Assembly: GCA_963681505.1 (NCBI GenBank)
Contig: OY811987.1
Location: 1,695,066-1,759,065 of the forward strand
DNA length: 64,000 bases
Origin: Eunapius fragilis
Taxonomy: Eukaryota; Porifera; Demospongiae; Spongillida; Spongillidae
Direction: 5' to 3'
Below, one piece after another: positions 7,801-48,862 of this stretch (position 1 is the first letter of the stretch; the number at the start of each line of letters is the position of its first letter). The notes beneath the pieces are model-generated. The model was not told the origin of the DNA, did no database searches, and was given only the letters and a program-made list of their open reading frames with translations. Position numbers and translations under genes: made by a program.

Positions 7801-9132
7801 GCACAGCTATGGACGTCGAGGTAGGCTGCATGCAGATAATGGTGGCCAAGGAGTTAGCCAAGGTCTCGTTCCAGGCGGTGGTGATGGATGCTGTGCTGGC
7901 CTCTGCAATGGTCACCATGCATGCCAGCAGGGCCTCTAGTTGGACCAGGTCCATTTGAGTGTACTGCTCAAGAAGTTGATAAAGCTGACACTCGATGCCC
8001 ATCTGCTCAAGCTCTTTCAGCTGGTTCCTGTCCAGCACTGCCAAGATGGCTCTCAGAAATGTGTTGCAGCTGCTGAACACTATGGTGTCATTTTTATTCT
8101 TCTCTAAATCAAGGGCCACCTTAATCAAAGGTGACAGTACGTTGATGCCCACTGCCATAGGTACTCCAAGGTCACCCCACAGGAACGCAGCAAAGACAAG
8201 TGCCTTGTGACAAAGGATGGGGCTTTTGGTGACCACTGTACTCAAGGCTTCTCTTTGGAGGGTGGTGAATGTTTCAGTGTTGTCTGGAGTGATAAGGAAG
8301 GGCTTGCAGAGTGGCATGGCATCAAAGACCAGGGTGAAAACACTTTCATCTCCAGGATATGTTTTCAGAAGTTTCGGCATAGCATCAAGAAGCCTGAGAG
8401 TTTCATAAGGCAAGTGGGAGGATACGAAGAAAGAGTGGGTGGAGGGTACAGGGAGGAAGAGGAAAATGAAGGAAGGAGGAAGGGTGGGAAGGTTAGGGGA
8501 TGGGAGGAGAGGGGAAGGAGAGGTGGGGGAGTTGACAGGTTAGGGATTGAGAGGGAAGGGGAGGAGGGTGGAATGTTAAATCATGGGAATTAGGCCACTC
8601 CAAACTGGTCTTTAGTTTCCTGTCCACCCGCAATCTAAATAGCCCACGCCTAAAACTTATATTATTGCTATATAAGGCCATGCGTTTGTGTTATTAAATG
8701 TCAACTTTAGTTATTCATCTGCTTATTAAAACCATGTGCCATTTTGCAATTGTCAGCCAATTGCCAATTGAGATTGAAAAAGAACGAAACTTAACTCTGA
8801 TGGTTGTATTTGTATTTTATCCTATATCCACGGTTACGGTTATTATAATCCTTTTGTAGAGACGGTTATATAATTTGGCGAATTTCAACTGTCTCCGTAT
8901 AAAGAAAGGATTACCCGCTACAACAAAATATGTTTCCAAACCTTTGCACTTGTCGATTGTCATATAATCCGCCATGGTTATGGTCCTGTAAGAAACTGAC
9001 CAGTAGCTCGCGGTCCTCATCCTGCTGTACGTAAGGAAGCGCAGGGACGGGTAAATATGGCGACCGCAAGGTATATGAATCTCTCACTTGAGGTTTCGAC
9101 GAAAAAGGCCCACTCGGTGCATCGAGCTGCAT
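4802..9132 (-). CDS. ARM-repeat/arginyl-tRNA--protein transferase (ATE1) fusion protein, left-arm copy
   Basis: Two-exon model: exon 1 is 9132-8942 (63 codons plus 2 nt), intron 8941-8394, exon 2 is 8393-4802; about 1260 aa. The long frame has no ATG at its 5' end. Joining the donor AAAG/GT to the acceptor CTCAG/G keeps frame and rebuilds an Arg codon, and an in-frame TAA sits just before the exon-1 ATG. Residues about 65-870 are Leu/Val-rich helices like ARM/HEAT repeats (for example LVSCALGLLANLMG). The last 375 residues match ATE1, which moves Arg from tRNA to N-terminal acidic residues in the Arg/N-degron pathway: YGSFHQLYRLDG, SLIDIVPKGIVSLY, YSLGVYSALKEIEF. The N-terminal cysteines differ from classical ATE1. 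The frame is open throughout. I do not know this fusion from any described ATE1. Confidence 0.82.
8394..8941 (-). other. Intron of the left ATE1 fusion gene with an exceptionally long polypyrimidine tract
   Basis: On the minus strand the last 180 bases before the acceptor are almost pure C and T and free of AG, then TTATGAAACTCTCAG/G. This is a strong acceptor context and argues that the codons before the AG are not translated. The intron is 548 bp, the same as in the right-arm copy. No other gene was seen. Confidence 0.7.
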
Positions 9133-9930: not shown

Positions 9931-9934
9931 TCCT

Positions 9935-9954
9935 GAACCTGCGGCAGCAGGTTC
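9935..9954 (+). repeat. Short 5'-terminal hairpin of element A1
   Basis: GAACCTGC-GGCA-GCAGGTTC, an 8-bp perfect stem with a 4-nt loop, four bases inside the element's TC start. Family B has the same geometry with different bases. Confidence 0.7.
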
Positions 9955-10337
9955 ATTATAGGATTGATTGAGGGTTGATGAATGTCATTAATCTAGCGTA
10001 TGGAGGGACAATGGAGAAACGGATCGCTTATCTCTTTATCGCGATGGAATGAGAGCACAACGATCTACAGTTCTACGTTGGTTCCGTGTCATTAAACGGT
10101 GTGGTTATAGAGAAACAAACAATTTCCTGTTTCTCGTGCCCATTCCTAAAATAATTCTTGGTTGTCGTCTTCTTCTTCTTAGGAAGGTGTAATTCGAGCT
10201 ACGAACGGTTTTGAAGAACAGTAATAGTACCAATCGCTTCGAAATTTACCGGCACGTTATCCTTACATGTTATATAGACACATATATATCAAGTTCTAAT
10301 TAATAACGATATATAATAGATTTTTATTAATAATTGT

Positions 10338-10640
10338 AGCGGGATTGTCAGCTGGGGCAGCCGCCTTGTCCACTGAAGATCGAAAGCATACTGACAATGA
10401 CCCCAAATGCAATGCTTTGGGCTGGTGTTGTGTATCTCTGCATGGTCACGGAGTCCTATGGTGCTTGGGGAAAGGAAGTCGTGGGCTCGTTTAAGATGCT
10501 TGCCTCCCGTCTTGCCATCATATCGGGCAAACCAAAGTCAGTTGTGCTGTCTGAACTGTATAACAAGCTCAACTTGCATCTGGTGAGGGCAAGTGCGACA
10601 GCAATCCTTTCCAGGTGGCTCCCATATAAAGTTTATTGAA
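10338..10640 (+). pseudogene. LINE-type reverse transcriptase C-terminal fragment (left arm)
   Basis: The translation contains STEDRKHTDNDPKCNALGW and then, after one frame shift, TESYGAWGKEVVGSF, LASRLAI and YNKLNLHLVRASATAILSRW. From memory, the pattern (V)ETYG-WG-EA...LASRLA...LYGRLNL-LVR is the tail of non-LTR reverse transcriptase proteins in invertebrates. Only this tail is present. It sits between the 5' hairpin of element A1 and its gene, which suggests an insertion into, or capture by, A1. An equal fragment is in the right arm at 42205-42507. Confidence 0.5.
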
Positions 10641-10856
10641 CTGTAGCATGATTTATTAATAATTCATGCATGTTGTTTCTCCTCCAATAATAATAATAAT
10701 CCCTGTACGTGCATTTATTCCCATTCGTGTATTCCTCTATATCTTATTCTTGTTACTATTATTTTAAATAATTTTAGGCAGTATAAATACTCTAACCTGC
10801 ACTATTATTGGTGCAGTTTAGTTGTTACTTTGGCAAGTGAAGTATTTTTTCTAAAA

Positions 10857-12182
10857 ATGCAAAAGAAGAGATCTAAGCAACTAGCGGAATACTTCCAAAA
10901 GCAAGACGAGAACAAAGCTAAAGCCCGAGCGCTCTACAAGACCAATCCCGAAAAAAAGAAGGCCTCTGTACGCACAGCTACAAGGCCGATCGCGAAAAGA
11001 AGAAGGCCTCTGTACGCGACAGCTACAAGGCCGATCCCGATAAGAAGAAGGCCTCTGTACGCGACAGCTACAAGGACGATATTGAATCTAAGCGATCTGC
11101 TAAAAGGTGGCGATATGAAGAGGACCTCGAGAAGAACCGTGCTGCTCGGTATGTAGAGAACCACGAGGAGAACGGTGCTGCTAAAAGACGCCGATATGAA
11201 GAGGACCTTGAGGAGAACCGTGCAGCTAAAAGGCGGCGATATGGAGAGGACCTCGAGGGAAACAGCGCTGCTTAAAGGCGAGGACAATTCAGCTGCCATT
11301 AAAGCATCTGAAAGGAGTCGGTATTGGAATGACCCCGCTGTCCGATTGGCTAAATGTGCTGCCGAGAGGACGCGGTGCCGCAGGGGTCAGAGACAGCCCC
11401 AATGAGAGGGGGGGCAAAATCCCTGGGCCCGGGCCTTTAGAGCCACGCCCTTTATTAGTTACTAGGCACGCCCCTCAGGCCTGGTCGATAATGAATGGCT
11501 TAGTTGCTAATTAGTTTCGAGGCTCAGACCGTTGTAACCAATCAGCGTCATGGTTTACACTTTCTATTTAACGAGCGGCAAGAATGAGCTACCATCACAA
11601 ATCAGGCGCCTAGAAAAGAAAGGAAAAGGCAATGCGTGCCGAAGGGGTCAGAGGGCAGAATGCGCTAAAACAAAATGGGTTTGATGTAAGTGATAGCGTT
11701 TAAAAAGATTTAATGAGAATTATGAGATTGATGAGATTCGTGATAATCAGGGTCCGGGTTACAGTTGTAGCTGATGCAGAACGATCTTTTGGTATTATAA
11801 AAATAAATTAGAACTATCTCCGATGAACTATGTGCCAGATGTCTGACATGTGGTTGACTTCTTTAGGAACATTGACTGTCGAGTCAGAGTTGGCGAAGCA
11901 ACTAGATTTTAATGAAATAATAGAAACAAAAAAGCGCACAAGGCTGCTGTCGGCACTCCCTTCAATTGATGATTTGTACGTACTGTATGTTTATGTTCTT
12001 TTTTAAAATTTGCTTTGTACATAAAACAAATGGCAAACAACACATCATGAATATATACAGTATTGTACACTAATGTATTATTAATTCAATAGCTGAGGCT
12101 AGGGACCCGAGAAAAAACTTTGCCCCGGGCCCGGGCTGGCTCTTGGCGGCCCTGGTCAAAGAACTACCACTACCACCCAAAG
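10857..12182 (+). pseudogene. Exon 1 of the A-family K/R-rich repeat gene, element A1, interrupted by a hAT-like insertion
   Basis: It starts at ATG 10857 (MQKKRSKQLAEYFQKQ) and encodes basic repeats of the type YKxxPEKKKASVR and RRYEEDLExNRAA. Compared with element A2 it lacks the PSRNQ segment after Met, and its frame is shifted inside the first repeat block. A 761-bp hAT-like element (11394-12154) splits the exon near its end. The splice donor AAAG/GTATG at 12182 is preserved. No exon 2 follows. It is a dead copy. Confidence 0.65.
11394..12154. mobile_element. Non-autonomous hAT-like element, 761 bp (left arm)
   Basis: Ends are CAGCCCC... and ...GGCGGCCCTG, with related G/C-rich inner ends (GGGCCCGGGC). 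It is flanked by an 8-bp target duplication with one difference: GTCAGAGA (11386-11393) and GTCAAAGA (12155-12162). An 8-bp duplication with CAG-starting ends fits the hAT superfamily. No transposase frame is visible. The right arm holds the same insertion with the same two flanks at 40685-41445, so it predates the inverted duplication. Confidence 0.7.
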
Positions 12183-12244
12183 GTATGTTATGGCATGTTG
12201 TAGGCTTTTAACATTAAAAAGTTGTGCATGCAACATTTGTACAG

Positions 12245-12316
12245 CATAGTCGGGCGGCCCTACTACCGCGTTTGGTTGGGCTTGTCACCCTAGGTAGTAG
12301 GGCCCGCCCGACTATG
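12245..12316. repeat. Hairpin repeat in the intron of element A1
   Basis: The arms ATAGTCGGGCGGCCCTACTA and TAGTAGGGCCCGCCCGACTA are nearly self-complementary around a short loop. The related hairpins in A2 (24137-24219), A2' (32247-32333) and A1' (40523-40594) lie at the same intron position, so it is part of the family or an old MITE. Confidence 0.65.
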
Positions 12317-13053
12317 TACTGCACGGATCTGCACAAAACCATTCACTTCACATGTAAAGCATGCATGGTGACTCACTGTGTGTACAGTATAGTGTCTTTT
12401 GTTTTAAACCAATGTATAAAAAGGTTTCCTTATCTGAAGGCTTCCTTATCTGAAGCCTTGTCTAGCCATGTACTATGTATGTTGCAACTGTACACAGCTT
12501 GGAAGAAGGGGCATTCAACTCCTTTTATCGCACAATACTTATTAAACATTCGAATGGCAAATGTATTCGTGACTTTCAGATATTTTTCTCTAATCATTTT
12601 TCGAATGTGAACATTCAAAACCATTTGAATGCTTGGAGAGGAGTATCATCTCTGGTAATGTGTAACTTTGCAAGATCAAATCGCGAGATACCTCTGAGTT
12701 TTGTTCAGATGTGTATTTGTGCGTGATTTACTGACACGCGGGTCAAAAACTTGGGCTATGTACGTATTCGATGGTTCGACCTATCTCTGGTTCGATCCAA
12801 TGCTCACGCTATAAATATACATATAGTCAGTTAACCCAGAGATACGTACCTCTTCACGCTTAAGCACGTGCATGGGCGATTAGCGTGTCTATATAAATCC
12901 TCCCCCCCACCCCCCCCCCCCCCCCCCCCCCCCCCAATGCAACACGATAATCAGACCCAGAGTACGGGTATACATAAGAGCTTAAGCGAGTCGACTGTGG
13001 GGCAACCGCTGAATACAGTACACGTTGAAGCCCCTCCCCCTAATGAAAGGTAA
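12317..13053. other. Distal part of element A1 or its flank, no gene, with a C34 tract
   Basis: The part up to about 12480 matches the intron of A2. Beyond it are short inverted motifs around ACATTCGAATG (12540-12640), a region repeated in the right arm, and a C-only run at 12902-12935. I see no protein-coding frame with family resemblance. Confidence 0.45.
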
Positions 13054-14038
13054 TCTGAACCTGCGGCAACAGGTTCAATACAGGATTGATTGAGGGTTGA
13101 TGAATGTCATTAATAAAACTTCACTAGCGTCTGGAGGGACAACGGAGAAACGGATCGCTTACCTCTTTATCGCGATGGAATGAGAGCACAACGATCTACA
13201 GTTCTACGTTGGTTCCGTGTCATAAAATGGTGTCGTTATAGAGAAACAAACAATTTCCTGTTTCTCGTGCCCAGTCCTAAAATAATTCTTGGTCGTCGTC
13301 GTCGTCTTCTTCTTCTTAGGAAGTTATAGCTCGAGCTACGAACGGTTCTGAAGAACGGCAATAGTACCAATCGCTTCGAAATTTATCGGCACGTTATCCT
13401 TACATGTCATATAGTCACATATATCAGGACCTACGTTAGTAGGTCCTATGTAGGATTTGAAGTGTGATGAATACGATTAGCGAAACACCATATTCCACTA
13501 TTGCCGCTGCACCGTAGAATCAGTTGGCCTTTAGCGGGCGTATTTGGATACAGCCAACAATTACCTACAATGTAATAAAACTGCCGACGCTTAGAAAGCT
13601 CAGACAACAGAGATAACGCTCTCTCGTTCCCACACTCGAACCTGAAAAAAAGTTTCTCCATCTTCTTCCGGATCTGATAAGATAAGATTTGCTCGGATAA
13701 GAGGTTTATTGCATTGCATCTTTGTCACGATTGAAGTATAATGTTAGCCGTTATGCGGAAGCACTAGAACCAACAAGTTAGAAACTTATTGTCGAGTTGG
13801 ATTTGTTTTATTATGTTAGTAACGAGAGTTATGCTTGACACAAATTTCAATCTCTAGCAAACTTAGTTTTGTTAGTATAGCCCACAACAGATTTTATCGG
13901 CCTTTGGAAGACATAAAAGTGGGCGGGAACGTGTGGTTGAACACGTTCTATATTTCATATAGTGCGCTACAGTTATAGTATTCAATTGTTGTCACGGTTG
14001 TACCAAAAGCTTGACGTGTCTGGTTTGTTTTCTTCAAA

Positions 14039-15724
14039 ATGCCGTCACGTCGATCGCGAAGAGAAAAGAATCGTGCAAAGAAGATCGCAAAGTTAAATGA
14101 CGACTGTTGTGTTGGCGAGTCGCAAGATATTGAGGAGCGTAACAGTTTTCAAGAAGCGCATGAAAAAAAGAAGACTTGCGACAGGAAGCGCTACAAAGCC
14201 GATCCTGAGAGTAAAAAGGATAGCATGAAGGCCCAATACTGGCTTGATCCGGAATGTAAGAAGGAGAGCGCTAAGGCCCAATACTGGCTTGATCCGGAAA
14301 GTAAGAAGGATAGCATGAAGGCCTACTATGATCAAAATAGAGAACTAATTTTAGCCTCCAAACAAGATCAATATCAGGCAAATCCAAAGGCCAAGAGAGA
14401 TATCTCAAGGATAAACAGCCGCAGGAAAAGAAATCCTATGAGGTAGGAGTGTTTGCAATGTTTGGGTGCAATATGTCCTACATGCAAGGGACCGATATAT
14501 TGTATCGTGTGCGTGTGTTCTTGCGAGTCGTCTGTGAGTTACATGTAGATAGGAAAACGAATAACGCCCACAATACATATGGGGCAGTGCAAGAGAAAAT
14601 TGGGCTTTTGCTTTTCAAATTTAACAGTTTTAGGATACTGGATAGCGCTCTCATAGCCATACGTATCAATGGCAAGCATTACTTTCTTTTAGTTGTCCTA
14701 CATAAGCCCAAATTTCTATTGCACTGCCCCATATACTCCATACCTTGTGCGTGAATAATTCATGCTTTAAAATTTGGTAAACATACCTCAATCAGAATAA
14801 CAAAACGAGGGTGCGCATATAATATCTAAAACATAAAATATTCATATTTAACTTCTGTTTTTCTATTCTTCTCCCTTTAGATACTCTCTGTTTGAGCCTA
14901 GTCCTAGTGTACAGGGTACATACAAGGGTGAGCTAAATAAAGCCCTTCATAACAATAGCTCATTACTTGGACAGTTGAATGATGCCTTCAATAAGGTTAA
15001 TCCCTGTCTAGCTAAAAAGGTGCTCACACGAACTGCTATTGAAGCAGTAGCTGAGATTTGCACAAATGCTTTGGTAAGCAAAGCTTTGAGCCTGCGTAGA
15101 GTACATGCTGGGGCGCTCATTAAAGGTGCGCGCTCCATCAATGCCTTGAGTTTTTCGCATTCCAATGTAGACAGTTGGGAGCGTTGTCACTCTGTGGGTT
15201 CAGAGCCGTATTTTTATGATAGTTCTTACACACCAGTTAAACACGTACAAGCCATGCCAGTAGACCAGCATGGTCGCTGTGTTGTCATTAAGGAGATAGG
15301 GACAATGAGCATGAGGCCACTAAAGTGGGAATGTTCTAGTGAGTGCAGACAGCCCAGTAAAGAGGAGATAGAGGTAATATGTACCACAAAGTCCCTCTTT
15401 AAAAAGTCACACGATGAGATACGACAAGGGCTTGACAAAATAGACAGAGGTTGTACTTTAGTTCAACAGGCACAGGCTACTATTCCTGACACTCCAGATG
15501 ATGGAGAACAGCCTAGGGTCAGTGAACTGCATGGACATCCCATATCTTGTGAGATGCTGTCATGTGCATGTCCACTAAGAGTAATTCGAGCAGCCTCAAC
15601 ACACTATCCAATGCTGAGAAGATTTCTGTGGCTTTTGTACTCTGTGCGCAAGAGTCACTTTGCAGTGGCCGTTACAGTTACATGCAGCTCTTTTTTACAA
15701 GAGCTACAGTTTCAATTTGGATAA
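14039..15724 (+). CDS. Two-exon K/R-rich repeat protein of element B (415 aa), unknown function
   Basis: Exon 1 is 14039-14442, intron 14443-14880, exon 2 is 14881-15724. The donor GAG/GTAGGAG and the acceptor CCCTTTAG/A join in frame through AG+A (Arg). Residues 1-135 are very basic, with about four repeats of 14-15 residues based on AQYWLDPESKKDS. Residues 136-415 start YSLFEPSPSVQ and contain LAKKVLTRTA, LVSKALSLRRVHAGALIK, CHSVGSEPYFYD, VKHVQAMPVDQHGRCVV, KWECSSEC and IRAASTHYPML. I remember this second part from predicted sponge proteins of unknown function. The basic repeats could bind DNA or RNA (inference). This copy has no visible break. A short MITE sits in the intron. Confidence 0.7.
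14577..14734. mobile_element. MITE in the intron of the element B gene
   Basis: Inverted ends of ATATGGGGCAGTGCAA enclose 158 bp. The inner halves (TTGGGCTTTTG / AAATTTGGGCTTATG) are also partly complementary. It is absent from B' at the matching place (about 35015), so it inserted after the two copies separated. Confidence 0.6.
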
Positions 15725-16372
15725 GTGATTAATGCTTTGTAGGACTAACCATGATTCCATGTATGGTGTCCCAGCATGTGGTCTTAATATCTCTATGGCT
15801 GCAAACCTGAACATCCCTGTGTTGTCAAGTACATCATTGTAATTTATGCTTTACAAGATCTATCAAATGGCCAATTAGGGTTGCAGCTGTGACCTTGGGG
15901 TACCATGTAAATTAATGGCTCTGGGTCTACAGCTGCAAGGCATGTGAAAAGGTTCTTCTGCGTCAACTTTTTGTACAACTTGCAGCTGTAATAAAACCAC
16001 AGCAAGCCTGCCTCCTTCCTGTGTGCATAACACACATGGTATATCCCAACATGTGGTCTTACATGTACTAGATGTCATCAGGTACAAGAGAGAAATCAAT
16101 GTTTTTACCCACAATTATTCAATACATGTATCTCTGATAGTATAATTTTAGCTTATTACCAGAGGCGGATCCCAGCTTACATGTAGCTGGGAGTAGGCGT
16201 GCCCTGCTCCACCCATTGCACCTCACCCTTCCCCACTGTTCGATTGCATGTGAGCAGATCAAACGATCTCTTGTACTACGATAGAGTATGATTCTTAGGT
16301 TGCCCAATACATGCCTCAATAAGCATATATACTTCCTCCTTCGTTTATTCTCATGCATAAAAATGTGTGAAA
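15725..16372. other. 3' region of element B without a gene
   Basis: It contains blocks such as GATTCCATGTATGGTGTCCC and GCCTGCCTCCTTCCTGTG that recur several times in B' (35.1-36.25 kb). The small proline-rich gene seen in B' is missing here. Near 16160 there is a CAGAGGCGGATCCC segment that resembles a transposon end, without a partner. Confidence 0.5.
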
Positions 16373-16674
16373 CAAGATATAAAAATTTAATTAAAATAAA
16401 ATTGGTGATGTAGGATTTGTAGACAGCAATTGAGTAAAAAGTAAGGAAACAAGGAATTACGGATTTTAGGCATTCATTTAATTATAAATATTACAGACCT
16501 ACATTTAGCACAGAATTTTCAAGGAAGTAGATTTGCTAAATAATGTAGGTCTGTAATATTTATTATTAAATGAATGCCTAAAATCCGTAATTCCTTGTTT
16601 CCTTACTTTTTACTCAATTGCTGTCTACAAATCCTACATCACCAATTTTATTTTAATTAAATTTTTATATCTTG
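16373..16674 (+). repeat. 3'-terminal hairpin of element B, about 300 bp
   Basis: The first 125 bases from CAAGATATAAAAATTT are repeated in inverted order at the right end with only a few mismatches. The centre holds CCTACATTTAGCAC. B' ends in the same hairpin (37255-37556) with the loop sequence in reverse orientation. Confidence 0.8.
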
Positions 16675-16757
16675 TATCAAGTTCTATTTAATAATGATGT
16701 ATAATAGATTTTTTAAAATAATTATAGGCTGTATAAATACTCTAACCTGCAATGAAG

Positions 16758-16926
16758 TTTAGTGCATAGCTAAACGCAGTTAATTAAAGGCCGGCAGCCC
16801 CGGCCCGCGCAGGCGCCCCCGAGCTAAGGAGGGCCGGCCTCTCGTATACTACGATATAATACACGCATCGGCCTCACAAGGGCTTAGTCGTGCCACGTGT
16901 AGGCGGTCAACGGATTCGAAATCTGT
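16758..16926 (+). repeat. Split direct repeat A1 of the Ngaro-like element
   Basis: 169 bases, almost identical to 23134-23302, starting TTTAGTGCATAGC and ending GAAATCTGT. Confidence 0.85.
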
Positions 16927-19679
16927 AGATGGATCTCGCTGAGGAGCAACGGCAGCATCTTGAACGACAGCTGCTGCAGATTTTTGGAATGGTTCAGCCC
17001 CAGGAGACGGCAGCGAGTGGGGTAGAGGGCCCATCGTCTGATCCCCAAACTAGTGCGGGAGAGGTTCGAAGCCAAGCCCAAGGGCCTAGTGGTAAGCGAG
17101 TCCTGCTCCATGTCACTAGGGCCTAGGCCGTAGTCGTCGTAGCCGACCAGTGTTATGCGCGAATTATTATAGGCATGCATTATAGTCGTAGATCGGTAGA
17201 TCGCATCGGAGCGGACGGCGATGGACGGACTCGGTATTCGGGCATCGGACGACGGGCGGACGCCAATCGGGGCGTGATAGCCGTAACCGTGCATGCTGCG
17301 GTTGTGTCGATCGAACTCTCATACCTACCCCCCCCCCCCCCCCCCCCCCCCCCCTCCCTCCGTAGGAGGTGCTCGAGCGAATCCGTCGGGGTCTCAACCG
17401 TTTCCGTCGGGTCTGCAAATTCCACTGTTTGCGCCGTCGGAGGCACTGGCGGGCGCGGATGTGCACTCCGTGGCCACGTTGACGGACGTGGGCCGGCAAG
17501 GGGCGAGCGGTACTGTTGTGCTGTCGAACGCCTTCAACCCGGCAGCGAGGTTCCCCGCGAAGGTTGTGGCCCGCATTGAAGGCCTCGAATACGTCGAGAT
17601 GTCCGAGCTCCTTCAGGAGGCATGGGCAGTCGAGAGCACCGATGCAAACCCGCTGCTGAAACTCCACGGCCGCAGGGCGCCGGTCACTGACATCCTGGTG
17701 TGGACCGAATGCTACGCGAGTATGGCGGCCATCCTGGCTCGAAGGTACCCTCAGAAGGCCCCGGAGCTCTTCGCCTACCTTCGGAGGATAATTAACGCGG
17801 CCCAAAAGTACGAGGGAGCTGCCTGGGTAACTTACGACAGGGTGTTCCGAAGGCAGGCGGCCGCGAGGGGAACATTGGACTGGTCCCAGGAAGACCAGGC
17901 CCTATACAATGAAGTATTCGCGGGCCGGGCGAGGCAGTGCACGCGGTGCCGGCACTGCCTGAGTGAACACCATGCCACCGAAACGTGCCCGGACACCCCC
18001 GTCTTCCCGTTCGCCTTCCCTCAGTTATCGATGACATCGGCGGCACCGATGGGGAACATGACTCAGACGCGCCCGCCGCTGGCACGCAGTGGGGAGCTCT
18101 GCCGGAAGTTTAACGAGAACCGGTGTTTTTACCGGCAATGTAAACACACCCATGCATGCAGCGTGTGCAATGGCCCGCACCCAGCGGAATCGTGCTCCCA
18201 CAACCGTCGTGGCGACCCTTACCCGCGAAGGGACCCCAAGCCGGCGGGGCCACTGTGATCGCCAGGGTGTCATCTGTTTGTCTCCTAACGTGATTTTGGG
18301 GGGGGGGGGGGGGGGGGGGGGATCAACTAGGCCATGATCGTTGTCTTCATGCTCAAGTGTCATATCTACTCATTCTTTATAATCAGAGTCAATCTGTCAT
18401 TTCGTGTTGTCGTCCTGGTTCCGCCCCCAAGGGTGTGATACTGCGCCGGGTACGATAATAGGCATACATTTCATTCATGGGTGGGCTGGCACATGCATGA
18501 TTTGTAATTTGTCTATCATATAGAGATCGGTGGTCGCTACCCTTACGCATACGCCGAACACCTCCGGCAGCTGCAGCAACCCCCTCCCACCACTACCCGC
18601 GGCCTTGTGTTGGGCGACCGGGGGGATTGTTTCTCCCCACTTCGGGTACCGGCATGGGCGATAGCATTGTGTGGCCACCCCGACCCGGAGTTCGTTGAAG
18701 CAATTGTGCGGGGCCTGAGAGACGGGTTTCGGATCGGCTTTGACAGGGCAAGCCCCCTAGTCCGGCTCCGCGGTCAGGAACATGCCGTCCGCAGCGGAAC
18801 ACGACGATGCCGTGTCTGAATATGTCGACACTGAGCTGCGGAAGAGGCACTTAATTCCTCGGCCCGTACTCTACGGAGGAGTTTGCCGGGGGACACATTA
18901 ACAGAATTGGTGTTATCCCCAAAGGCCACACCCCCGGGAAGTGGAGGATAATTACCGACTTATCGTTCCCCACGGGAGGGAGTGTCAACGATGGGATCGA
19001 TCCCTTGCTGTGCTCTCTGTCGTATGTTTCGGTCGACGAAGTGGCAGCTATTGCTGCTGGGCTAGGCCGAGGGGCGCTGTTGGCCAAGATAGATATAGAG
19101 TCGGCGTACGTACCGTCTGGTCCCAGTCCACCCTGACGACCGTTACTTGTTGGGGGTTCGATGGAAGGGCAAGATTGTGGTCGATGGCATGCTCCCCTTC
19201 GGCCTCCGTTCGGCACCTAAGATATTCACACTGATAGCCGACGCTCTCGAATGGGTAGTCCGCAAGGCAGGGGTCCGGCAGATTGCTCACTACCTCGATG
19301 ACTTCGTGGTCATCGGGCGACCGGCCTCTGACGAGTGTGCGGAGAGCCTACGGAGGATGACGGAGTTGTGCGCGATCCTGGGCGTTCCGCTCGCAAAGGA
19401 AAAGTCCGAAGGCCCCTCAACCTCCATCACATTTCTTGGCATCCAACTGGACACCGAATCGGGTACACTTGCCCTTCCACCAGCGAAACTCCAGCGAATC
19501 TGCGACCTGCTGAACGAGTGGGGTGATAAGAAGGTATAGTCTCGTCCCCAGACCCATGTTCCCAACAGCTGCGGGTGGATTACATCACCGCTACGTGGAA
19601 AGTGGGTCTGGGAAATAAGAACGACGCACTTGTTCCGAGCGTCCTTCAATGTTTATGTCCAAAAATAGTACGGCAATCT

Positions 19680-19970
19680 AAATTTAGAACTAATCTCGCA
19701 CAATTAGAACGCAATAAGCGCTATCATTTACGCGTGTTATCTATCGTTGCTTTTGGCCGTGCTGCTTCGGAGGACTGGGTGTGCTCTCCTCTCCCTTTTT
19801 CAGGCAGGGTATTAGCTTGTAAGCAAGGCAAAAATTCCGATGAAGTGAAAGAGTTCTCGGAAGGTTACGCCTGTATTAGCTGTTTTCGAGCAGTCAGCAG
19901 ATATGTAATGCAGTTTGTGAACAAGCTTTCTGTGTCACAGCCCGTGGAAGTGTTTGGAGAAGACAGCTGA
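19680..19970 (+). other. Unrecognised short reading frame inside the MULE-like element
   Basis: The open stretch encodes about 95 residues with a plain globular composition (NLAQLERNKRYHLRVLSIVA ... LSVSQPVEVFGEDS) and ends at TGA. It resembles no transposase that I know. MULEs often pick up gene fragments, so it may be captured host sequence, or it may be chance. Confidence 0.25.
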
Positions 19971-20063
19971 AACAGTGTGTCACTTTAACCCTTTCCAACT
20001 CCTCCAAGTGCAATAACGAACAGCTCCATGACAACATTTTATTACCTTTATGCATAACCCACA

Positions 20064-20066
<3 letters not shown>

Positions 20067-20128
<62 letters not shown>
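20067..20128. repeat. (CA)n microsatellite
   Basis: About 30 uninterrupted CA units inside the MULE-like element. Confidence 0.95.
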
Positions 20129-20130
<2 letters not shown>

Positions 20131-20597
20131 AAGGCTGCACACATATTGTGCCTACACACAACCTTTTCCTCCCTCTAGCTGATGCAGTCTGGGGATGTGA
20201 TTCCTTATATCCATATCAGGCTCAGGGACTGATGTTATTTCCTCATGTGAAGCGGCCGACTAAATAGGATTACAGGATGGCACACTATGCTTATGACCAT
20301 AGCAGCACAACACACACTACCATCTCGCTTAATACACCTTTCTCTCATAGGTCCATCTGCTTCACTGCTTGCTTGGAAAGCTGTGAACCTTTCTTAATTC
20401 AGTCCATAGAGGGTTGTGAGGAGGCAGGGTGAAGTCCTTGGGTGTGGCCAGTCCATAGGTCTGCTGAGATCGCTCCAGTTCCGGCATTCCTCAGGGGAGA
20501 AAATGGCCATGTATCGTATAAACCAGTCACATGGGTGCAAACCACTCACATGTGACCATTTATATGGTGCAAAGTATGGCACCGAAGACACCCTTCT

Positions 20598-20872
20598 CCA
20601 CGTTGTGCGCCCACAATGGCATCCTTGTCCACGTTGTGCGCCCACAATGGCTGTCCACGTTGTGCGCCCACAATGGCTGTCCACGTTGTGCGCCCACAAT
20701 GGCTGTCCACGTTGTGTGCCCACAATGGCATCCTTGTTCACGTTGTGTGCCCACAATGGCTGCGCCCACAATGGCTGTCCACGTTGTGCGCCCACAATGG
20801 CGCCCATGTCCACGTTGTGCGCCCACAATGGCGCCCATGTCCACGTTGTGCGTGGCGCCCTTGTCATGTTGT
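20598..20872. repeat. Minisatellite with CCACGTTGTGCGCCCACAAT unit
   Basis: About ten copies of a 24-32-base unit, with variable spacers TGGCTGT, TGGCATCCTTGT and TGGCGCCCATGT. The open frames seen here on both strands follow from the repeat and are not genes. Confidence 0.9.
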
Positions 20873-22981
20873 GCGCCAGCCTAGCTCATCCTAGTCTTTG
20901 AACCGCACGCAAAAAAAACCTCCTCAATACGTGTATCTTGCTCGCACATTCCCACTTCGATGTCTATTAATTGAACCACACCTTCCACTTGAAATCAGGT
21001 AATCAGCAACTTGCATGTGTTATTAAGGTTACGTCATCGTCATTACGTATATACACATCCGTCCCAATGTTTTGGGACGCTCGGAACAAGTGCGTCGTTC
21101 TTATTTCCCAGACCCACTTTCCACGTAGCGGTGATGTAATCCACCCGCAGCTGTTGGGAATCTGGGTCTGGGGACGAGACTAAAGAAGGTATGCTCAAGA
21201 AGAGAACTAGAGTCACTCATCGGGGTGCTCAACCACGCCTGCAAGGTGGTGAGACCCGGTCGTTCGTTCTTGCGACGGCTAATCGACCTGCTGGCAGAAT
21301 CGCGAGTTACGTTTGCTAGAAGGCCACACCATAGCATCCGGCTTAATCGGGCATTTAGATCGGATATTGCCTGGTGGCGCTCGTTCATCGTGGAGTGGAA
21401 CGGCGTTGGATTCTTTCCGCGGGTTAACATGGATGGCGAGCATCGGGTGACGTTCGTCACGGACGCCTCAGGCGCGTGGGGATGTGGCGCTCGATGGGGG
21501 ACCCATTGGTTTCAGCTGGCGTGGGATGCTAAGTCTAACCCCTCCCCCATCGCGGTCAAACTGAGGACTCATTCCGATCGTATTGGCTGCCGCTGTGTGG
21601 GGGAAGGAGTGGCGGGGCGGATCTGTCACGTGCCGGTGTGACAATCAGACCGTGGTGTCGGTACTGGCATCTCGGTCCAGTCGCAATGCAGAGATAATGC
21701 ACCTCCTCCGGTGTCTCTTCTTCATCGAGGCCCGCATGCAGTTCACACTCCACTGTGTCCACCTTCCGGGAGTGGAGAACACGGTTGCGGATGCCCTCTC
21801 CCGTAATGACTTAGTCTCGTTCCGTTCACAGGCTCCCGAAGCCGACCGGGACCCGCAGGTCCTGCCCGAGTCGTTGGTGGAGGCGCTACTCCTATTCGAC
21901 CAGGATTGGCTCTCACCGACTTGGAGAAGACTGTTCGGTTTTATTTCCATCAAGGCCTAGCCGAGTCGACCCACCGTACATACAGCTCGGGGATGAAACG
22001 GTTCTATAGGTTTTGCACTATGTACTCGGTGTTCAACCCGTTTCCTGTAACGGAAAGGCTGTTGTGTTATTTCGTTGCACACCTGGCGGAGGAGGGGCTG
22101 GCGTACCAAACTGTGAAGACATACTTGGCGGCGGTACGAGACACGCACGTTTCGTTGGGGTTCCCCGATCTCCGATCGTCTGACAATCTCCCGCGGCTAA
22201 CAAAGATCCAAGCGGGGATCCGCCGAGTTCAAGCCCTCAAGAATCAACCCAAGAGGGTCCGCCTTCCTATAACCCCAGCAATTTTGGAGCGGCTGCGAGT
22301 CCACTGGTCGTCCGACAGAGACGGGGGCCTATTCTGGGCGGTATAGCGTCTCTCTGCTTCTTTGGCTTCTTTCGTCTCGGGGAGCTCCTGGCTCCCAGTG
22401 CCGATAAGCTGTTGTATCTGTCGTGGGGCGACGTGTCATTCGACCGCGCCCCCCACCCATCGATCATGAAGGTCCACTTGAAGACCTCCAAATGCGACCA
22501 GTTTGGTAAGGGAGTGAACATCTTCATCGGCCGGTCCAAGGACTCCATCTGCCCAGTGGAGGCCTGCCTGGCTTACATCACCGTTCGAGGGTCGGACCCC
22601 GGCTACTTTTTCAGGGACAGGGAGGGCAAATGGTTGCTGAAACCCCGCTTCATCTCCGAGATGAGGAAGGCTCTTGCGGCCATCGGCTTGCACCAGGAGA
22701 CGTATGCGGGCCATAGCTTTCGAATCGGTGCGGCCACGACGGCAGCGGCGGCGGGTTTGGAGGACTCAACCATCCAGCTGCTAGGGAGGTGGAACAGCGC
22801 AGCATTCCTGGCCTACATCAGGACGCCGGGTATCCAGCTGGCGGCTCACACGGCCAGACTGGCAAAGCGGCAGTAACAGTGTGGCCGTTGTTTGGTGTAA
22901 TTGTATTACTGAAAAGCAACACACACCCACTCTAATTAGTAGTTACCTTGGAGGTGTGTGTCTCGGGTTCCCCTCGACCAT

Positions 22982-23132
22982 TGGGAAGCTGATCCGCCCA
23001 CCTGTCGACCTCGTCGCCCGAGGGGCGGATCTTCGTCACACCCCCACGGTGGCTAAAGGGGGCGGAACCCAGACACCCTCCAAAGCACTAAGTAGATAAT
23101 GGCGTAAACGACATTCTACGTGCTGGCTCGGT
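22982..23132 (+). repeat. Split direct repeat B1 of the Ngaro-like element
   Basis: 151 bases, nearly identical to 23362-23512, starting TGGGAAGCTGATCCGCC and ending GTGCTGGCTCGGT. It follows the recombinase region by about 105 bases. Confidence 0.85.
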
Positions 23133-23133
23133 G

Positions 23134-23302
23134 TTTAGTGCATAGCTTAACGCAGTTAATTAAAGGCCGGCAGCCCCGGCCCGCGCAGGCGCCCCCGAGC
23201 TAAGGAGGGCCGGCCTCTCGTATACTACGATATAATACACGCATCGGCCTCACAAGGGCTTAGTCGTGCCACGTGTAGGCGGTCAACGGATTCGAAATCT
23301 GT
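23134..23302 (+). repeat. Split direct repeat A2 of the Ngaro-like element
   Basis: Matches 16758-16926 and directly follows B1. Confidence 0.85.
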
Positions 23303-23361
23303 CCACCACCGACCCCGACCTCTGCTGCCTCACTCCATTACCTATGTGAGGTGATCTAGTC

Positions 23362-23512
23362 TGGGAAGCTGATCCGCCCACCTGTCGACCTCGTCGCCCG
23401 AGGGGCGGATCTTCGTCACACCCCCACGGTGGCTCAAGGGGGCGGAACCCAGACACCCTCCAAAGCACTAAGTAGATAATGGCGTAAACGACATTCTACG
23501 TGCTGGCTCGGT
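23362..23512 (+). repeat. Split direct repeat B2 of the Ngaro-like element
   Basis: Matches 22982-23132 and ends the element just before the host element sequence resumes. Confidence 0.85.
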
Positions 23513-24136
23513 AATTAACTAAATTTATTGGTGTTCCTATCGCTTGTTACTTTGGCTAGTGAAGTTGTTTTTCTAAAAATGCCTTCGCGTAATCAAAAGA
23601 AGAGATCTAAGCAACGAGCGGAATACCTCCAAAAGCAAGACGAGAACAAAGCTAAAGCCCGAGCGCTCTACAAGGCCGATCCCGAAAAGAAGAAGGCCTC
23701 TGTACGCGACAGCTACAAGGCCGATCCCGAAAAGAAGAAGGCCTCTGTACGCGACAGCTACAAGGCAGATATTGAATCTAAGCGATCTGCTAAAAGGTGG
23801 CGATATGAAGATGACCTCGAGGAGAACCGTGCTGCTAAAAGGCGGCGATATGAAGAGGGCCTTGAGGAGAACCGTGCTGCTAAAAGGCGGCGATATGAAG
23901 AGGACCTCGAGGGAAACCGCGCTGCTAAAAGGCAGAAATACGAGGACAATTCAGCTGCCATTAAAGCATCTGAAAGGTGTCGGTATTGGAATGACCCCGC
24001 TGTCCGATTGGCTAAATGTGCTGCCGAGAGGACGCGGTACCGCAGGGGTCACAGAACTACCACTACCACCCAAAGGTATGTTATGTCATGTTGTATTAAC
24101 ATTAAAAAGCTGTGCATGCATCATTTGTACGTACAG

Positions 24137-24219
24137 CATAGTCGGGCGGCCCTACTACCGCGTTTGGTCGGGCTTGCACCCTACTACCTGACCAAACGCG
24201 GTGATAGGGCCCGCCCGAC
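24137..24219. repeat. Intron hairpin of element A2, cut by the CACTA insertion
   Basis: The arms CATAGTCGGGCGGCCCTACT and its complement form a hairpin of about 85 bp. The CACTA-like element inserted at the TA of the outer stem (24218-24219). Confidence 0.65.
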
Positions 24220-31834: not shown

Positions 31835-32033
31835 CAAGTAAATAAAAACATTCTCTAACGAGAGAGTTGTTGGTAAATAGGATTGACCAATGGTGGTGTA
31901 AAAAGCACGGAAACAAGAGTGACAGAAATTTTACTCGAAAATTGAAATTGGCCTATATTTAGCACGCTCACAAAATAACAGCGCATGCCTGAGTAATGTG
32001 CTAAATATAGGCCGATTTCAAATCGGAATAGCT
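31835..32033. repeat. A-type 3' hairpin at the axis of the large inverted duplication
   Basis: The left half starts CAAGTAAATAAAAACATTCT and reaches GAAATTGGCCTATATTTAGC, then a 32-base loop. The right half returns as GCTAAATATAGGCCGATTTC and then runs directly into the reversed exon 2 of A2'. A complete relative lies at 48592-48862. The arms of the 43-kb inverted duplication converge on this loop. Confidence 0.7.
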
Positions 32034-34099: not shown

Positions 34100-34643
34100 T
34101 CAGGACCTACGTTAGTAGGTCCTATGTAGGATTTGAAGTGTGATGAATACGATTAGCAAAACACCAGATTCCACTATTGCCGCTGCACCGTAGAATCAGT
34201 TGGACTTTAGCGAGCGTATTTGGATACAGCCAACAATTACCTACAATGTAATAAAACTGCCGACGCTTAGAAACCTCAGACAACAGAGATAACGCTCTCT
34301 CGTTCCCACACTCGAACCTAAAAAAAAGTTTCTCCTTCTTCTTCTTCTTCTTCTTCCGGATCTGATAAGATAAGATTTGCTCGGATAAGAGGTTTATTGC
34401 ATTGCATCTTTGTCACGATTGAAGTATAATGTTAGCCGTTATGCGGAAGCACTAGAATCAACAAGTTAGAAACTTATTGTCGAGTTGGATTTGTTTTATT
34501 ATGTTAGTAACGAGAGCTATGCTTGACACAAATTTCAATCTCTAGCAAACTTAGTTTTGTTAGTATAGCCCACAACAGATTTTATCAGCCTTTGGAAGAC
34601 GTAAAAGTGGGCGGGAACGTGTGGTTGAACACGTTCTATATTT

Positions 34644-34918
34644 CGCAAAGTTAAATGATGACTGTTGCATGTGTTGGCGACTCGCAAGATATTGAGGAGC
34701 GTGACAGTTTTCAAGAAGCGCATGAAAAAAAGAAGACTTGCGACAGGAAGCGCTACAAAGCCGATCCTGAGAGTAAGAAGGATAGCATGAAGGCCCAATA
34801 CTGGCTTGATCCGGAAAGTAAGAAGGATAGCGCGAAGGCCCAATACTGCCTTGATCCGGAAAGTAAGAAGGAGACCGCTAAGGCCCAATACTGCAGGAAA
34901 AGAAATACTATGAGGTAG
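34644..34918 (+). pseudogene. K/R-rich repeat gene remnant of element B'
   Basis: It encodes ERDSFQEAHEKKKTCDRKRY and three AQYWLDPESKKDS-like units up to the donor ATGAG/GTAGGAG. A deletion just upstream removed the promoter, start codon and first 20 codons seen in element B. No exon 2 follows. Confidence 0.65.
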
Positions 34919-36470
34919 GAGTGTTTGCAATGTTTGGATGCAATATGTCCTACACGCATGGGACCGATGTATTATATCGTGTGCGTGTGTTCGTCTGCGA
35001 GATAGGAAAACGAATAACGCCAGATCAATTTGCATTGGATTATATGCTTGCCAGCTTTGATACTCTATGAGGGGAGTTTTATACCACATTCACACTACAT
35101 GTCTGTGAATGTTGACTATTATATTTTTGCAAGGATAAAACCACATGCCTGTCAATGGATACCATATACAGTATGGTGGCCCAGCATGTGTCTTTTAAAC
35201 CTTGCCATACAGGATGTAGCATCAATGGTTGCTAATCCCTAGATTCTCTGTGTAAACAATATTTTATCTTACAGCTGTACAGTCTATAAAACCACATGCC
35301 TGCCTCCTTCCTGTATGGATACCATATTTGGTGGCCCAGGCCAGTATGTGTCATAGCTTCTATGGCTGCTAAAACATGCAGGATCATGATGATCTCTAAT
35401 TTTCAGCTGGAACCTATTACATGCACCTCTCTTAAGAGCTATCTATCTGCCTCGCTTTGCAGGACTAACTAACTTCCTGCATGATTCCATGTGTGGTGTC
35501 CCAGCATGTGGTCTTAAACTTTGACACATATACTGTGGCTGCAAACCTGAACATGGAGCAATCCTTCCCTGGGTTCTGCAGTACATCATCTGGAACCAAT
35601 TACAGCTCTTTTAAGAGCTGTCACTCTGACTAAGAGATTATGGTTTGCAGGTTTATCAAATGGCAAATGGGGTTGCAGCTGTGATCTTGACTGCATGTAA
35701 ATTAATGGATCTGTCTCTATAGGCCCTAACCCCGGAATATGCATGACTTCACACAATTATATGTTGTACTTAACTCACAATCCAATCCTTATATCAGTTG
35801 ATGTACGTTCTCTATACAAAACTGCTCTTAAAAATAGGCTTGCCTTCCTCCCATGTATGTGTTCATATGTCAAGGAGTCTACAGCTGCATGGCATGTGAA
35901 CATGTTTCTCTGTGTCAACATTTATCTTGCAACTTTGCATTCATAAAACCACAAGCCTGCCCCTTCCTCCATATATGGTGGCACAGTGTGTGGTCTAAAA
36001 GCTAGCTTCTATGGCTGCTAAAACATGCACATGGACCACCAATCATCCTCCATGATGTTCTCCTGTTTTCAGCTGGAACCAGTTACCTATTACATGCAGC
36101 TCTTTTCAATTTGGATAAGCGATTTATGCTTTGCAGGACTAACTAACTTCCTGCATGATTCCATGTATGGTGTCCCAGCATGTGGACTTAAAATCTCTAT
36201 GGCTGCAAACCTGAACATTCCTGTGTTCTCAAATATATCATTGTAATTTATATATTTTTACCCATGCATAAGTTAAAGTGGCAGCAACCCTAGGCCTCTC
36301 TCTACACATGATTGTGTGCAGTTTCACATACATCAGCAAATACTAGCCATTTGAAATGCAGGCCGTCTTAATTCAGCCCCACCCCCACCACCGCATATAT
36401 AGTTGGTTTGTTCAACACATTTATTATGGGAGGCCATTCCAATAATTTAATACTTCCCTCGTATTAGATC
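34919..36470. repeat. Diverged repeat blocks in element B'
   Basis: Blocks such as GATTCCATGTATGGTGTCCC, CTATGGCTGCAAACCTGAAC and AAACCACATGCCTGCCTCCT recur two to four times with 70-90 percent likeness and also occur once in element B (15725-16060). No protein-coding sequence was recognised. Confidence 0.55.
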
Positions 36471-36479
36471 AGTTTTGGT

Positions 36480-37007
36480 TTGTATAAAGCAACTTTCTCA
36501 CTCACTCTTTACTTTAAGATATGGAAGAGGTATGCATGTGTACATAGGATTTGCATGCATGGCATTATATCTATATAATATATATTATTACCCTTGTAGG
36601 TCACAGCAGAAGAAGCTGAGAATCTGTTTGCTGTTGACTCGGGTGAGGAGGGCCCTCCCTACTCTCCGATACCATTCTTGGTCCCTGCTCCGGTCCTGCT
36701 TGCCCCAGCTCTGGCCCCAGCTCCGCCGCTGCCCCCAGCTCCGCTGCTCCCACCTGTGCCACTGCTGGCCCCTGCTCTGCTTGCCCCAGATCCGCCGCTG
36801 GCCCCAGCTCCGCTGCTCCCACCTGCGCCACTGCTGACCGGCTCCAGCTCCGCCACTGCTCCACTGGCTTCAGCTCCGCCACTGCTCCACTGGCCTCAGC
36901 TCCGCCACTGCCCCGAGCTCCACCTGCGCCATTGCCCGTACTGGGGGCCTCTCGGAGCTCGGCCGTATAGAAGGCTTTATTATAAATTTACAACTAATGT
37001 TTTTTGA
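36480..37007 (+). CDS. Small acidic/proline-rich protein of element B' (about 138 aa)
   Basis: A TATA box (TGTATAAAG at 36481) precedes exon 1 at 36521-36529 (MEE). The donor GAG/GTATGC and the acceptor CTTGTAG/G lead to exon 2, 36600-37007, in phase 0. The protein starts MEEVTAEEAENLFAVDSGEE, then has about 60 residues of Pro/Ala/Leu repeats and ends with an Arg/Tyr-containing tail. It is the relative of the 315-aa protein of element A2, shorter in the repeat. The frame is open. Function unknown. Confidence 0.55.
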
Positions 37008-37254
37008 ATGCTATATAGCAGGGCTACCGATTGCGCCGTATCGATCTTCCGACCAAGTTAAAACAGTTTAGTTAAGAGCATGCATATGATTGCGCAGGGA
37101 TGAATACTTCCTCGCCATGCGAAGTAATCTTGCATTACACGGCACGATTATTCAATACATGTATCTCTGATATAATACATGTTTATAATTTTAGCTTATT
37201 ACCACAGGCGGATCCCGGCTTACATGTACAGCGCTTAGCATAAAAATGTGTGAA

Positions 37255-37556
37255 ACAAGATATAAAAATTTAATTAAAATAAAATTGGTGATGTAGGATT
37301 TGTAGACGGCAATTGAGTAAAAAGTAAAGAAACAAGGAATTACGGATATTAGGCATTCATTTAATTATAAATATTACAGACCTACATTATTTAGCAAATC
37401 TACCTCCTTGAAATTCTGTGCTAAATGTAGGTCTGTAATATTTATAATTAAATGAATGCCTAATATCCGTAATTCCTTGTTTCTTTACTTTTTACTCAAT
37501 TGCCGTCTACAAATCCTACATCACCAATTTTATTTTAATTAAATTTTTATATCTTG
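37255..37556 (+). repeat. 3'-terminal hairpin of element B', about 300 bp
   Basis: The arms CAAGATATAAAAATTTAATT and complement pair over about 125 bases. The loop is the reverse complement of the loop in element B. Confidence 0.8.
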
Positions 37557-38165: not shown

Positions 38166-39308
38166 TAAGTCACAAATTTCCCGTAATTGTATTACAACTT
38201 CATCATAAGAGATCAATATGAACAAAACTCGTTTATTTCTTATATGCGTGGTTTGTGCGCGCGTGCACTTCGTATGGTTCAAAGAAGCCATTTTTACAGC
38301 ATCAAACATCTGTTTACAACAAATACAGTGGCAGTACAATCATTATACGCTTACTGCTTAGTCTTTACTAGGCAAATTCCCTACACTGCTATAGCCACTG
38401 CCCTATGAAGCCATTTTTGATTAGATCGTCGATTAGGCTCGTGTATCGACGATTTAATGAGCTATGAATATTCGTCGATATAGTGACTCGACGATGCATA
38501 CTAATTGCGATCCATTAATTCGTAATCGACGATATAATTAGAATCGCGGCAACACTGTACAGAGGCCTTCTTCTTTTCGGGATCGGCCTTGTAGAGCGCT
38601 AGGGCTTTAGCTTTGTTCTCGTCTTGCTTTTGGAGGTATTCCGCTCGTTGCTTAGATCTCTTCTTTTGATTACGCGAAGGCATTTTTAGAAAAACAACTT
38701 CACTAGCCAAAGTAACAAGCAATAGGAACACCAATTGATTTAGTGCAGGTTAGAGTATTTATACAGCCTATAATTATTTTAAAAAATCTATTATACATCA
38801 TTATTAAAGAGAACTTGATATATATGTGACTATATGACATGTAAGGATAACGTGCCGATAAATTTCGAAGCGATTGGTACTATTGCCGTTCTTCAGAACC
38901 GTTCGTAGCTCGAGCTATAACTTCCTAAGAAGAAGAAGACGACGACGACCAAGAATTATTTTAGGACTGGGCACGAGAAACAGGAAATTGTTTGTTTCTC
39001 TATAACGACACCATTTTATGACACGGAACCAACGTAGAACTGTAGATCGTTGTGCTCTCATTCCATCGCGATAAAGAGGTAAGCGATCCGTTTCTCCGTT
39101 GTCCCTCCAGACGCTAGTGAAGTTTTATAATGACATTCATCAACCCTCAATCAATCCTGTATTGAACCTGTTGCCGCAGGTTCAGATTACCTTTCATTAG
39201 GGGGAGGGGCTTCACCGTGTACTGAGTTCAGCGGTTGCCCCACAGTCGACTCGCTTAAGCTCTTATGTATACCCGTACTCTGGGTCTGATTATCGTGTTG
39301 CATTGGGG

Positions 39309-48591: not shown

Positions 48592-48862
48592 CAAGTAAAG
48601 AAAAACATTCTCTAACGAGAAAGTTGGTGGGATATAGGAATTGGAGTCAAAGGTTGTTTAAGAAGGAAGGGAACAAGGTTGAAAAGTGAGACAAAAACGA
48701 TATATTTCTTTTGGTTCTGTTACATTTACATGTGCTAAGTATAGGATTCTTGTCTCATTTTTCTTTTCCCCAAAACCTTGTTCCCTTCCTTTCTACACCA
48801 CCTTTGCCTTCAATTCCTATATCCCACCAACTTTCTCGTTAGAGAATGTTTTTCTTTACTTG
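48592..48862. mobile_element. Stand-alone A-type 3' hairpin, 271 bp
   Basis: It starts CAAGTAAAGAAAAACATTCT and ends with the complement AGAATGTTTTTCTTTACTTG, followed by T. The centre holds GTGCTAAGTATAGG. It is the complete form of the hairpin at 31835-32033. No 5' element part was found next to it, so it is either a solo hairpin MITE or the end of a decayed element. Confidence 0.7.

Follow-up and report, generated by a model that had tools for sequence, protein, structure and literature searches.

In a 64,000-nucleotide stretch of the genome of the sponge Eunapius fragilis (assembly GCA_963681505.1, contig OY811987.1, positions 1,695,066 to 1,759,065 of the forward strand; hereafter the window, in whose coordinates all positions are given), B and B' are copies of one transposable element family and lie among related elements that we call A. 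On balance we favor the view that B and B', like the A elements, are rolling-circle transposons built on a Helitron2-like plan, non-autonomous and with internal deletions; B and B' probably represent a variant of a known rolling-circle transposon group. The unusual feature is a hairpin of about 300 nt that reaches the 3' terminus itself; a TC start with a 5' hairpin is already known from Helitron2. Within this hairpin the arms have changed together and the loop is inverted between B and B'. These two features had escaped the original prediction, made from the sequence of the window, as had a short asymmetric inverted repeat near the element ends, much as in Helitron2. The features that carry the argument are as follows.

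13424..16674, forward strand: element B, 3251 bp, delimited by ends common to B' and by an empty site
34100..37556, forward strand: element B', 3457 bp, nested in an element with hAT-like ends (32774-38557)
38744..38880, reverse strand: empty site for B, located in the duplicated and inverted target; junction at 38820/38821, 99.3% identity
13424..13447, forward strand: 5' terminus of B, consisting of TC, a 9-bp stem and a 4-nt loop
13448..13459, forward strand: 5' copy of the 12-nt asymmetric inverted repeat of B
16373..16674, forward strand: 3' terminal hairpin of B, about 302 nt, ending CTTG, with 133-nt arms and one mismatch
16506..16541, forward strand: loop of the B hairpin, inverted relative to B'
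16628..16639, reverse strand: 3' copy of the 12-nt asymmetric inverted repeat of B
37256..37556, forward strand: 3' terminal hairpin of B', with identical arms and its loop at 37389-37423
48592..48862, forward strand: E, a third homologous long hairpin, ending ACTTG/T, from which its orientation is assumed

Both B and B' open with TCAGGACCTACGTTAGTAGGTCC and close with ATATCTTG, with A before and T after (CATATA/TCAGGA...ATCTTG/TATCAA for B, GAATCA/TCAGGA...ATCTTG/TAACAT for B'); the identical ends reported in the original prediction are thus borne out. The two copies also have in common their 5' 0.5 kb (521 of 544 aligned positions), one more coding stretch, some shorter interior stretches and the last ~320 bp, while the remaining interior differs. 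Exact copies of TCAGGACCTACG occur twice in the window, at 13424 and 34100; allowing up to two mismatches gives three matches against a chance mean of 3.2, so that this 12-mer alone is little proof. Exact copies of CAAGATATAAAAATTT number four, being both arms of two hairpins.

When the flanks of B are joined, they align without a gap to 137 bp at 38880-38744, one position differing, and with two older paralogues (10227-10339 and 42618-42506) over 113 bp at 91%, again gapless. The empty site excludes a TA duplication at B and upholds the earlier claim of placement between A and T without target duplication; since B begins with T and T comes after it, zero duplication at A^T is indistinguishable from a 1-bp T duplication. 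This judgement applies to B, there being no empty site of B' in the window. The A^T flanks, which the original prediction had proposed checking at further ends, recur throughout those recognized in the window: A precedes TC in all four independent 5' ends (B, B', and the A elements A1 and A6), and T follows CTTG in all three 3' ends (B, B' and E, the last in its assumed orientation).

DDE cut-and-paste elements that insert without target duplication exist, Spy being an example. Such an element is scarcely credible here: the two termini show no inverted-repeat relationship (TCAGGACC... versus CAAGATAT...), and no DDE domain was found in the frames scanned of B (5), B' (4), A1 (3) and A6 (2), nor any recombinase or Rep/helicase (RepHel) domain. 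An rve integrase core (59307-59594) with an H2C2 domain (58924-59280) lies far outside the elements and probably belongs to another retroelement.

The start of B is, as originally described, TC followed by a hairpin, whose stem measures 9 bp rather than the 8 bp first given. It folds at -8.9 kcal/mol against a shuffled mean of -1.9, with none of 200 shuffles as good. TC with an immediate hairpin of 8-9 bp stands at B, B', A1 (9931), A6 (13054) and the inverted duplicate of A6 (39186), and each of the three 5' ends folded (B, A6 and A1) beats 200 of 200 shuffles. The two A ends align to the first 50 nt of B with scores of 42 and 39, narrowly above the respective maxima of 2000 shuffles (39 and 38).

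At the other end, the predicted 300-bp hairpin closing with CTTG is present in both copies. Its arms are about 133-138 nt long and 99% complementary in B, and about 133-134 nt and 100% complementary in B'; the hairpin of B folds at -145.5 kcal/mol against -21.85 for shuffled sequence (0 of 100 as good). In B and B' the element terminus is the base of the hairpin, as it seems to be in E as well. In searches of the window, a profile of the B and B' arms finds E as its next match (E-values of 0.027 and 0.048) and then A6 (0.93), and a profile of the arms of E finds the left arm of A6 (2.2e-13), then B (0.021) and B' (0.92). Single E-values are modest, yet the hairpins of E, A6 and B/B' are mutual best matches by sequence similarity; arms of different families are only 53-66% alike in alignment.

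A long hairpin of this kind might have begun as, or might still be, a separate palindromic repeat resembling a miniature inverted-repeat transposable element (MITE), captured as a terminator by read-through, in which case E would be the MITE itself. The sequence just upstream of E showed no TC-hairpin 5' end, and the palindrome of E seems to run past CAAG/CTTG (AACAAT...ATTGTT). Furthermore, read-through gives new 3' ends in Helraiser and bat Helitrons (PMC4778049). We nevertheless consider capture unlikely. Homologous hairpins end both A6 and B, so that capture would predate the families, and the borders of E carry no direct repeat as judged by eye; the proposal is also about origin more than mechanism.

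The hairpin arms change together. Between B and B', three substitutions are each present in both arms, and a fourth site differs in one arm only. In an alignment of B, B' and E in which 95.3% of 382 cells pair, two-sided changes occur in 34 of 133 pairs; the shuffled value is 11.4, none of 500 shuffles comes as high, and with the pairing partners slid the count falls to 1-6. Three of these 34 pairs separate B from B'; the others separate E from both. The loop, moreover, is inverted between the two copies: the B' loop (35-36 nt), once inverted, agrees with the B loop at 34 of 36 positions, against 21 of 36 in direct comparison. Beside the loop, TTAGCAC occurs in B, where it is confined to the left side; B' and E have its complement instead, confined to the right. 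By analogy, matched arms and an inverted loop are the same kind of footprint as the flip and flop of adeno-associated virus (AAV).

Two copies cannot tell transposition from host recombination as the source of this footprint. A serious rival, to which we grant an appreciable minority chance, is therefore a Helitron2-like element whose palindrome symmetry and flip arose by host processes (gene conversion or crossing-over between the arms, cruciform cutting or replication slippage) and play no role in transposition chemistry. Long inverted repeats are reported to be fragile (PMC3855049, PMC4319165), and the inverted duplication around the A6 hairpin, described below, could come from host repair alone. 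Against this, the base of the hairpin falls at the terminus of B and B' and apparently at that of E, and a long hairpin has been kept in spite of the divergence of the arms between families, which suggests use.

Inverted loop and identical arms could also be artefacts of assembly: reads shorter than the 133-nt arm cannot fix the orientation of the loop, and for arms of such length the ambiguity is real. We regard this as very improbable. The window is free of N and includes placed inverted repeats whose identity extends over at least 400 bp, which suggests long reads without proving them; one arm mismatch occurs in B alone, and the substitutions between B and B' are private to each copy.

The ends of the element are related in a further way. 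The 12-nt sequence ATGTAGGATTTG lies 24 nt in from the 5' end of B, its inverted copy lies 35 nt from the 3' end, and two of 2000 base shuffles reach this length; B' carries the same repeat. In the A family, ATAGGATTGA (10 nt) is common to the 5' end of A1 and the 3' arm of A6 (7 of 2000 shuffles), at offsets similar to those in B and with a different sequence. Other pairings are shorter (A1 with E, 7 nt; A6 with E, 5 nt; two cross pairs of A6 and B, 6 and 7 nt). Hence the longest matches fall within families, as paired ends would predict. An alternative asymmetric repeat in B, its terminal CAGGACCTACGTT against the inner stem CAGACCTACATT, was dropped, A being without it (by eye and with no control).

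The features of the A family are the following.

9931..12450, forward strand: A1, its end approximate and its 5' end backed by a homologous flank
13054..13423, forward strand: 5' part of A6, probably continued at 16675-16751, 23518-24221 and 29877-31958
31839..32025, forward strand: 3' hairpin of A6 (left arm, loop and right-arm stump), the center of an inverted duplication

The flank of A1 is homologous to 57505-58320 right to the terminus, and its 3' end was not found in the window; 57505-58320 was considered as the empty site of A1 and dropped, its continuation having no match after A1. B is nested in A6, which is interrupted by B, by a retroelement (~16752-23517) and by a TA-flanked element (~24222-29876). 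The right arm of the A6 3' hairpin ends after about 27 nt and gives way to the complement of 30110 and upstream. On this hairpin is centered an inverted duplication spanning ~4.8 to 48 kb, with arms (4807-30110 and 32026-47951) that are 92-100% alike by segment; they now measure 25 and 16 kb, or about 9.6 and 10.1 kb minus later insertions, which differ between the two. The A region is confounded by an inverted duplication of ~10 kb. The plan originally ascribed to the family stands in part: TC with a 5' hairpin of 8-9 bp is present in A1 and A6, the 3' hairpin is partial, being preserved as the pieces of A6 listed above, and ACTTG before T is seen at E, for which no 5' end was found.

Several neighboring features were recorded in passing. 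The retroelement within A6 encodes reverse transcriptase and tyrosine-recombinase-like (phage-integrase-like) domains and has split direct repeats (16757-16926 with 23133-23302, and 22982-23132 with 23362-23512), a plan like that of Ngaro/PAT. The TA-flanked element has short imperfect inverted ends (CACAACCAGTTTT / AAAACTGGCCGTG) and no convincing domain in the six frames scanned. The host element of B' has inverted ends (CAGTGTTGCCGCGAT) and an 8-bp duplication (TACAGAGG), with no hAT domain in two frames. Open reading frames (ORFs) with the C-terminal domain of arginyl-tRNA-protein transferase (ATE_C, E about 1e-24) lie at 4802-8413 (reverse strand, 1203 aa), 44432-47956 (forward strand, 1174 aa) and 63077-63970 (reverse strand, 297 aa). 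The first two were considered as part of the A transposon and dropped: the right-hand one sits beside the inverted duplicate of A1, on a stretch of ~4.4 kb (43699-48084) that is absent from the homologous region at 57.2-58.3 kb. The border of that stretch, TCCAGCATTATGGG, recurs at a copy starting at 62944, the third and partial one (62944-64000). Homopolymer runs of 24-29 C or G occur at 12910, 17328, 39755, 24720 and 39712, and positions 1-948 match DUF6589 weakly (E about 4e-4, below the family cut-off).

B itself contains a predicted gene, drawn from frames and splice borders as a prediction only.

14039..14443, forward strand: predicted exon 1, beginning MPSRRSRRE, with basic 15-residue repeats
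14444..14880, forward strand: predicted intron with GT/AG borders
14881..15724, forward strand: predicted exon 2, beginning YSLFEPS, apparently shortened by internal deletion

Exon 2 shows 52% identity over 84 aa to A6 (30035-30286), and B' encodes a degenerate exon 1. The frame of B runs out in sequence similar to a part of B' that lies close to the 3' end (15710-15847 versus 36104-36251), and for this reason B, B' and A6 look like deletion derivatives, each with part of one gene. Proline-rich repeat-coding stretches at 30645-31544 (A6) and 36678-36960 (B'), each preceded by a similar acidic sequence as judged by eye, are possibly a shared last exon of that gene. The predicted gene has no Pfam match at E up to 10 and exon 2 none in a PDB sequence search; AlphaFold, given a two-row alignment of exon 2, returned a mean predicted local distance difference test score (pLDDT) of 35 and no usable fold. 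At gathering scores, no Rfam family matched the window. In viral contigs the exon-2 protein gave seven pattern matches, none confirmed, and two hairpin-arm and two 5'-end patterns gave none each. In genome contigs the two-row protein alignment gave 100 pattern matches, none confirmed, and a 5'-end pattern gave one (L001, a Prevotella metagenome-assembled genome) that lacked the subsequent AGGATT and was judged chance. A looser 5'-end pattern was badly spaced, missed known ends and gave 8 matches in the window against 12.2 by chance; it was left unused. The autonomous partner envisaged in the original prediction was sought among the scanned frames of the window, in which no transposition enzyme for these elements was found.

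Terminal hairpins and the lack of a duplication fit transposons of the IS200/IS605 type as well (PMC3627910). Some other kind of HUH single-strand transposon (IS200/IS605-like or Replitron-like), or a tyrosine-recombinase element such as Crypton, is nonetheless improbable: no enzyme appears in the element frames scanned, the two junctions of B share one T only and so no Crypton-like short direct repeat, and the asymmetric inverted repeat with an A^T target points to the Helitron type, in a comparison with IS200/IS605-type elements and Crypton. A rolling-circle-like element is the best reading because there is no terminal inverted repeat, no duplication at B, an A^T target and a hairpin at both ends, together with the absence of DDE, recombinase and RepHel domains from the frames scanned. 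The elements would work like Helitron2; membership of Helitron2 is unproven, since no RepHel was seen and the published 3'-end feature was not found.

In a Helitron2-like scheme, a RepHel-type enzyme made elsewhere in the genome would nick the TC end and peel off one strand. Peeling would stop at the 3' end, where the inverted copy of the 5'-subterminal sequence is available to pair with it, and the single strand would then be joined between A and T. The place of the short 3' terminator hairpin is taken by the ~300-nt palindrome, whose outer base is the terminus. The arm changes and the two loop orientations suggest that during transposition or repair this palindrome folds, is nicked and is then recopied as one block. 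In the simplest version, the 3'-OH at the hairpin base would prime second-strand synthesis, and a nick at the base would let the hairpin be copied again, with one arm rewritten from the other and the loop inverted, as in parvovirus terminal resolution. A snap-back copy begun at the A6 hairpin, combined with a central deletion, would give the inverted duplication, as would repair of a hairpin-capped break; since a snap-back copy would leave a duplication centered on that hairpin, we count it in favor of the Helitron2-like account.

A number of observations pull the other way. In Helitron2 the repeats measure 8-15 bp: the 5' copy belongs to the hairpin and is set 0-2 bp in from the terminus, and the 3' copy stops about 20-30 bp short of the other terminus and is followed by a short hairpin (PMC3627910, PMC5148889). 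In B, by contrast, the 5' copy lies behind the 5' hairpin and the 3' copy, at its greater distance, inside the long stem; the short downstream hairpin was not recognized, and the ~302-nt terminal hairpin encloses the repeat instead. The 5' end and 3' arm of A6 itself share just 8 nt (162 of 2000 shuffles). As to the arms, 7 of the 34 two-sided pairs fall at columns of at least 113, where E aligns loosely, and the structure used for the counts is that of B itself, which favors the unslid version. The flip is one comparison between two certain B copies, together with E in an assumed orientation, and in A6 the left side of the stem has TTAGCAC and the right side its complement, which makes the motif a poor guide to orientation there. 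Pfam scans of 40 frames, out of the 149 in the window that reach at least 90 aa, and of ten ORFs found no Rep/helicase. Finally, Helraiser, where a hairpin is the likely terminator, forms circles without it (PMC4778049), which makes a hairpin-primed step an addition to that pathway.

Tentatively, we may go one step further and consider a eukaryotic rolling-hairpin transposon, in which the 3'-OH of the folded hairpin primes the second strand, a Rep-like activity nicks the base and so resolves the closed end, and the loop inverts with each round. If true, this doubtful but attractive possibility would provide a mechanistic link between Helitron-type transposons and parvovirus replication. To our knowledge, the conversion of the Helitron-type single strand to duplex is not settled. 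A family with matched arms and a flipping loop would be a natural record of the second-strand step, one that genome copies by themselves would reveal; it would also connect rolling-circle transposons with viruses that end in hairpins. Moreover, with such a hairpin at the center of a large inverted duplication, ends of this type may matter for genome rearrangement.

Among known systems, Helitron2 begins with T and combines terminal hairpins, one at each end, with asymmetric inverted repeats (PMC3627910, PMC5148889). The elements described here resemble it, and FoHeli1/2, in the 5' T(C) with an immediate hairpin (FoHeli1 begins TCAGCC GAA GGCTG; PMC5148889), an asymmetric inverted repeat, though differently placed as noted above, the 3' hairpin and the occurrence of non-autonomous derivatives (PMC3627910, PMC5148889). 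The empty site of B, without target duplication, adds to the likeness; some Helitron2 do have target duplications (PMC3627910). They differ in the 3' end CTTG, in the loop inverted between copies and in that RepHel was not seen in the frames scanned. With Helitron1, as represented by Helraiser, they share the 5' TC, A^T insertion and a hairpin as likely terminator; unlike it, they end in CTTG, not in CTRR with a short hairpin ~11 nt upstream, possess a 5' hairpin, and have a 3' hairpin that is far longer and terminal (PMC4778049). Helentrons, DINE-1 and HINE likewise have subterminal inverted repeats of 12-15 bp and a 3' stem-loop, whereas their target is TT, here A^T, and neither endonuclease nor RepHel was seen here in the frames scanned (PMC4067079). 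Both hallmarks of DDE transposons with terminal inverted repeats, these repeats and a target duplication, are lacking, the latter as judged at B. We found no description of a ~300-nt terminal hairpin in the literature searched, whose coverage is thin for subscription papers, so this is not proof. The suggestion in the original prediction of a distinct rolling-circle-like group is retained as far as rolling-circle-like design and the unusual 3' end are concerned; its TC start and 5' hairpin are not new. A counterpart to that 3' end is found in the parvoviruses. The elements differ from AAV in being genomic, in having one long hairpin end and in that no Rep gene was seen in the frames scanned, and the likeness is one of sequence features. 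In AAV the folded 3' end is extended and then nicked at the terminal resolution site, which predicts flip and flop orientations (PMC8195378). A terminal hairpin, matched arms and an inner part in two orientations are likewise what the two certain copies of the sponge element display.

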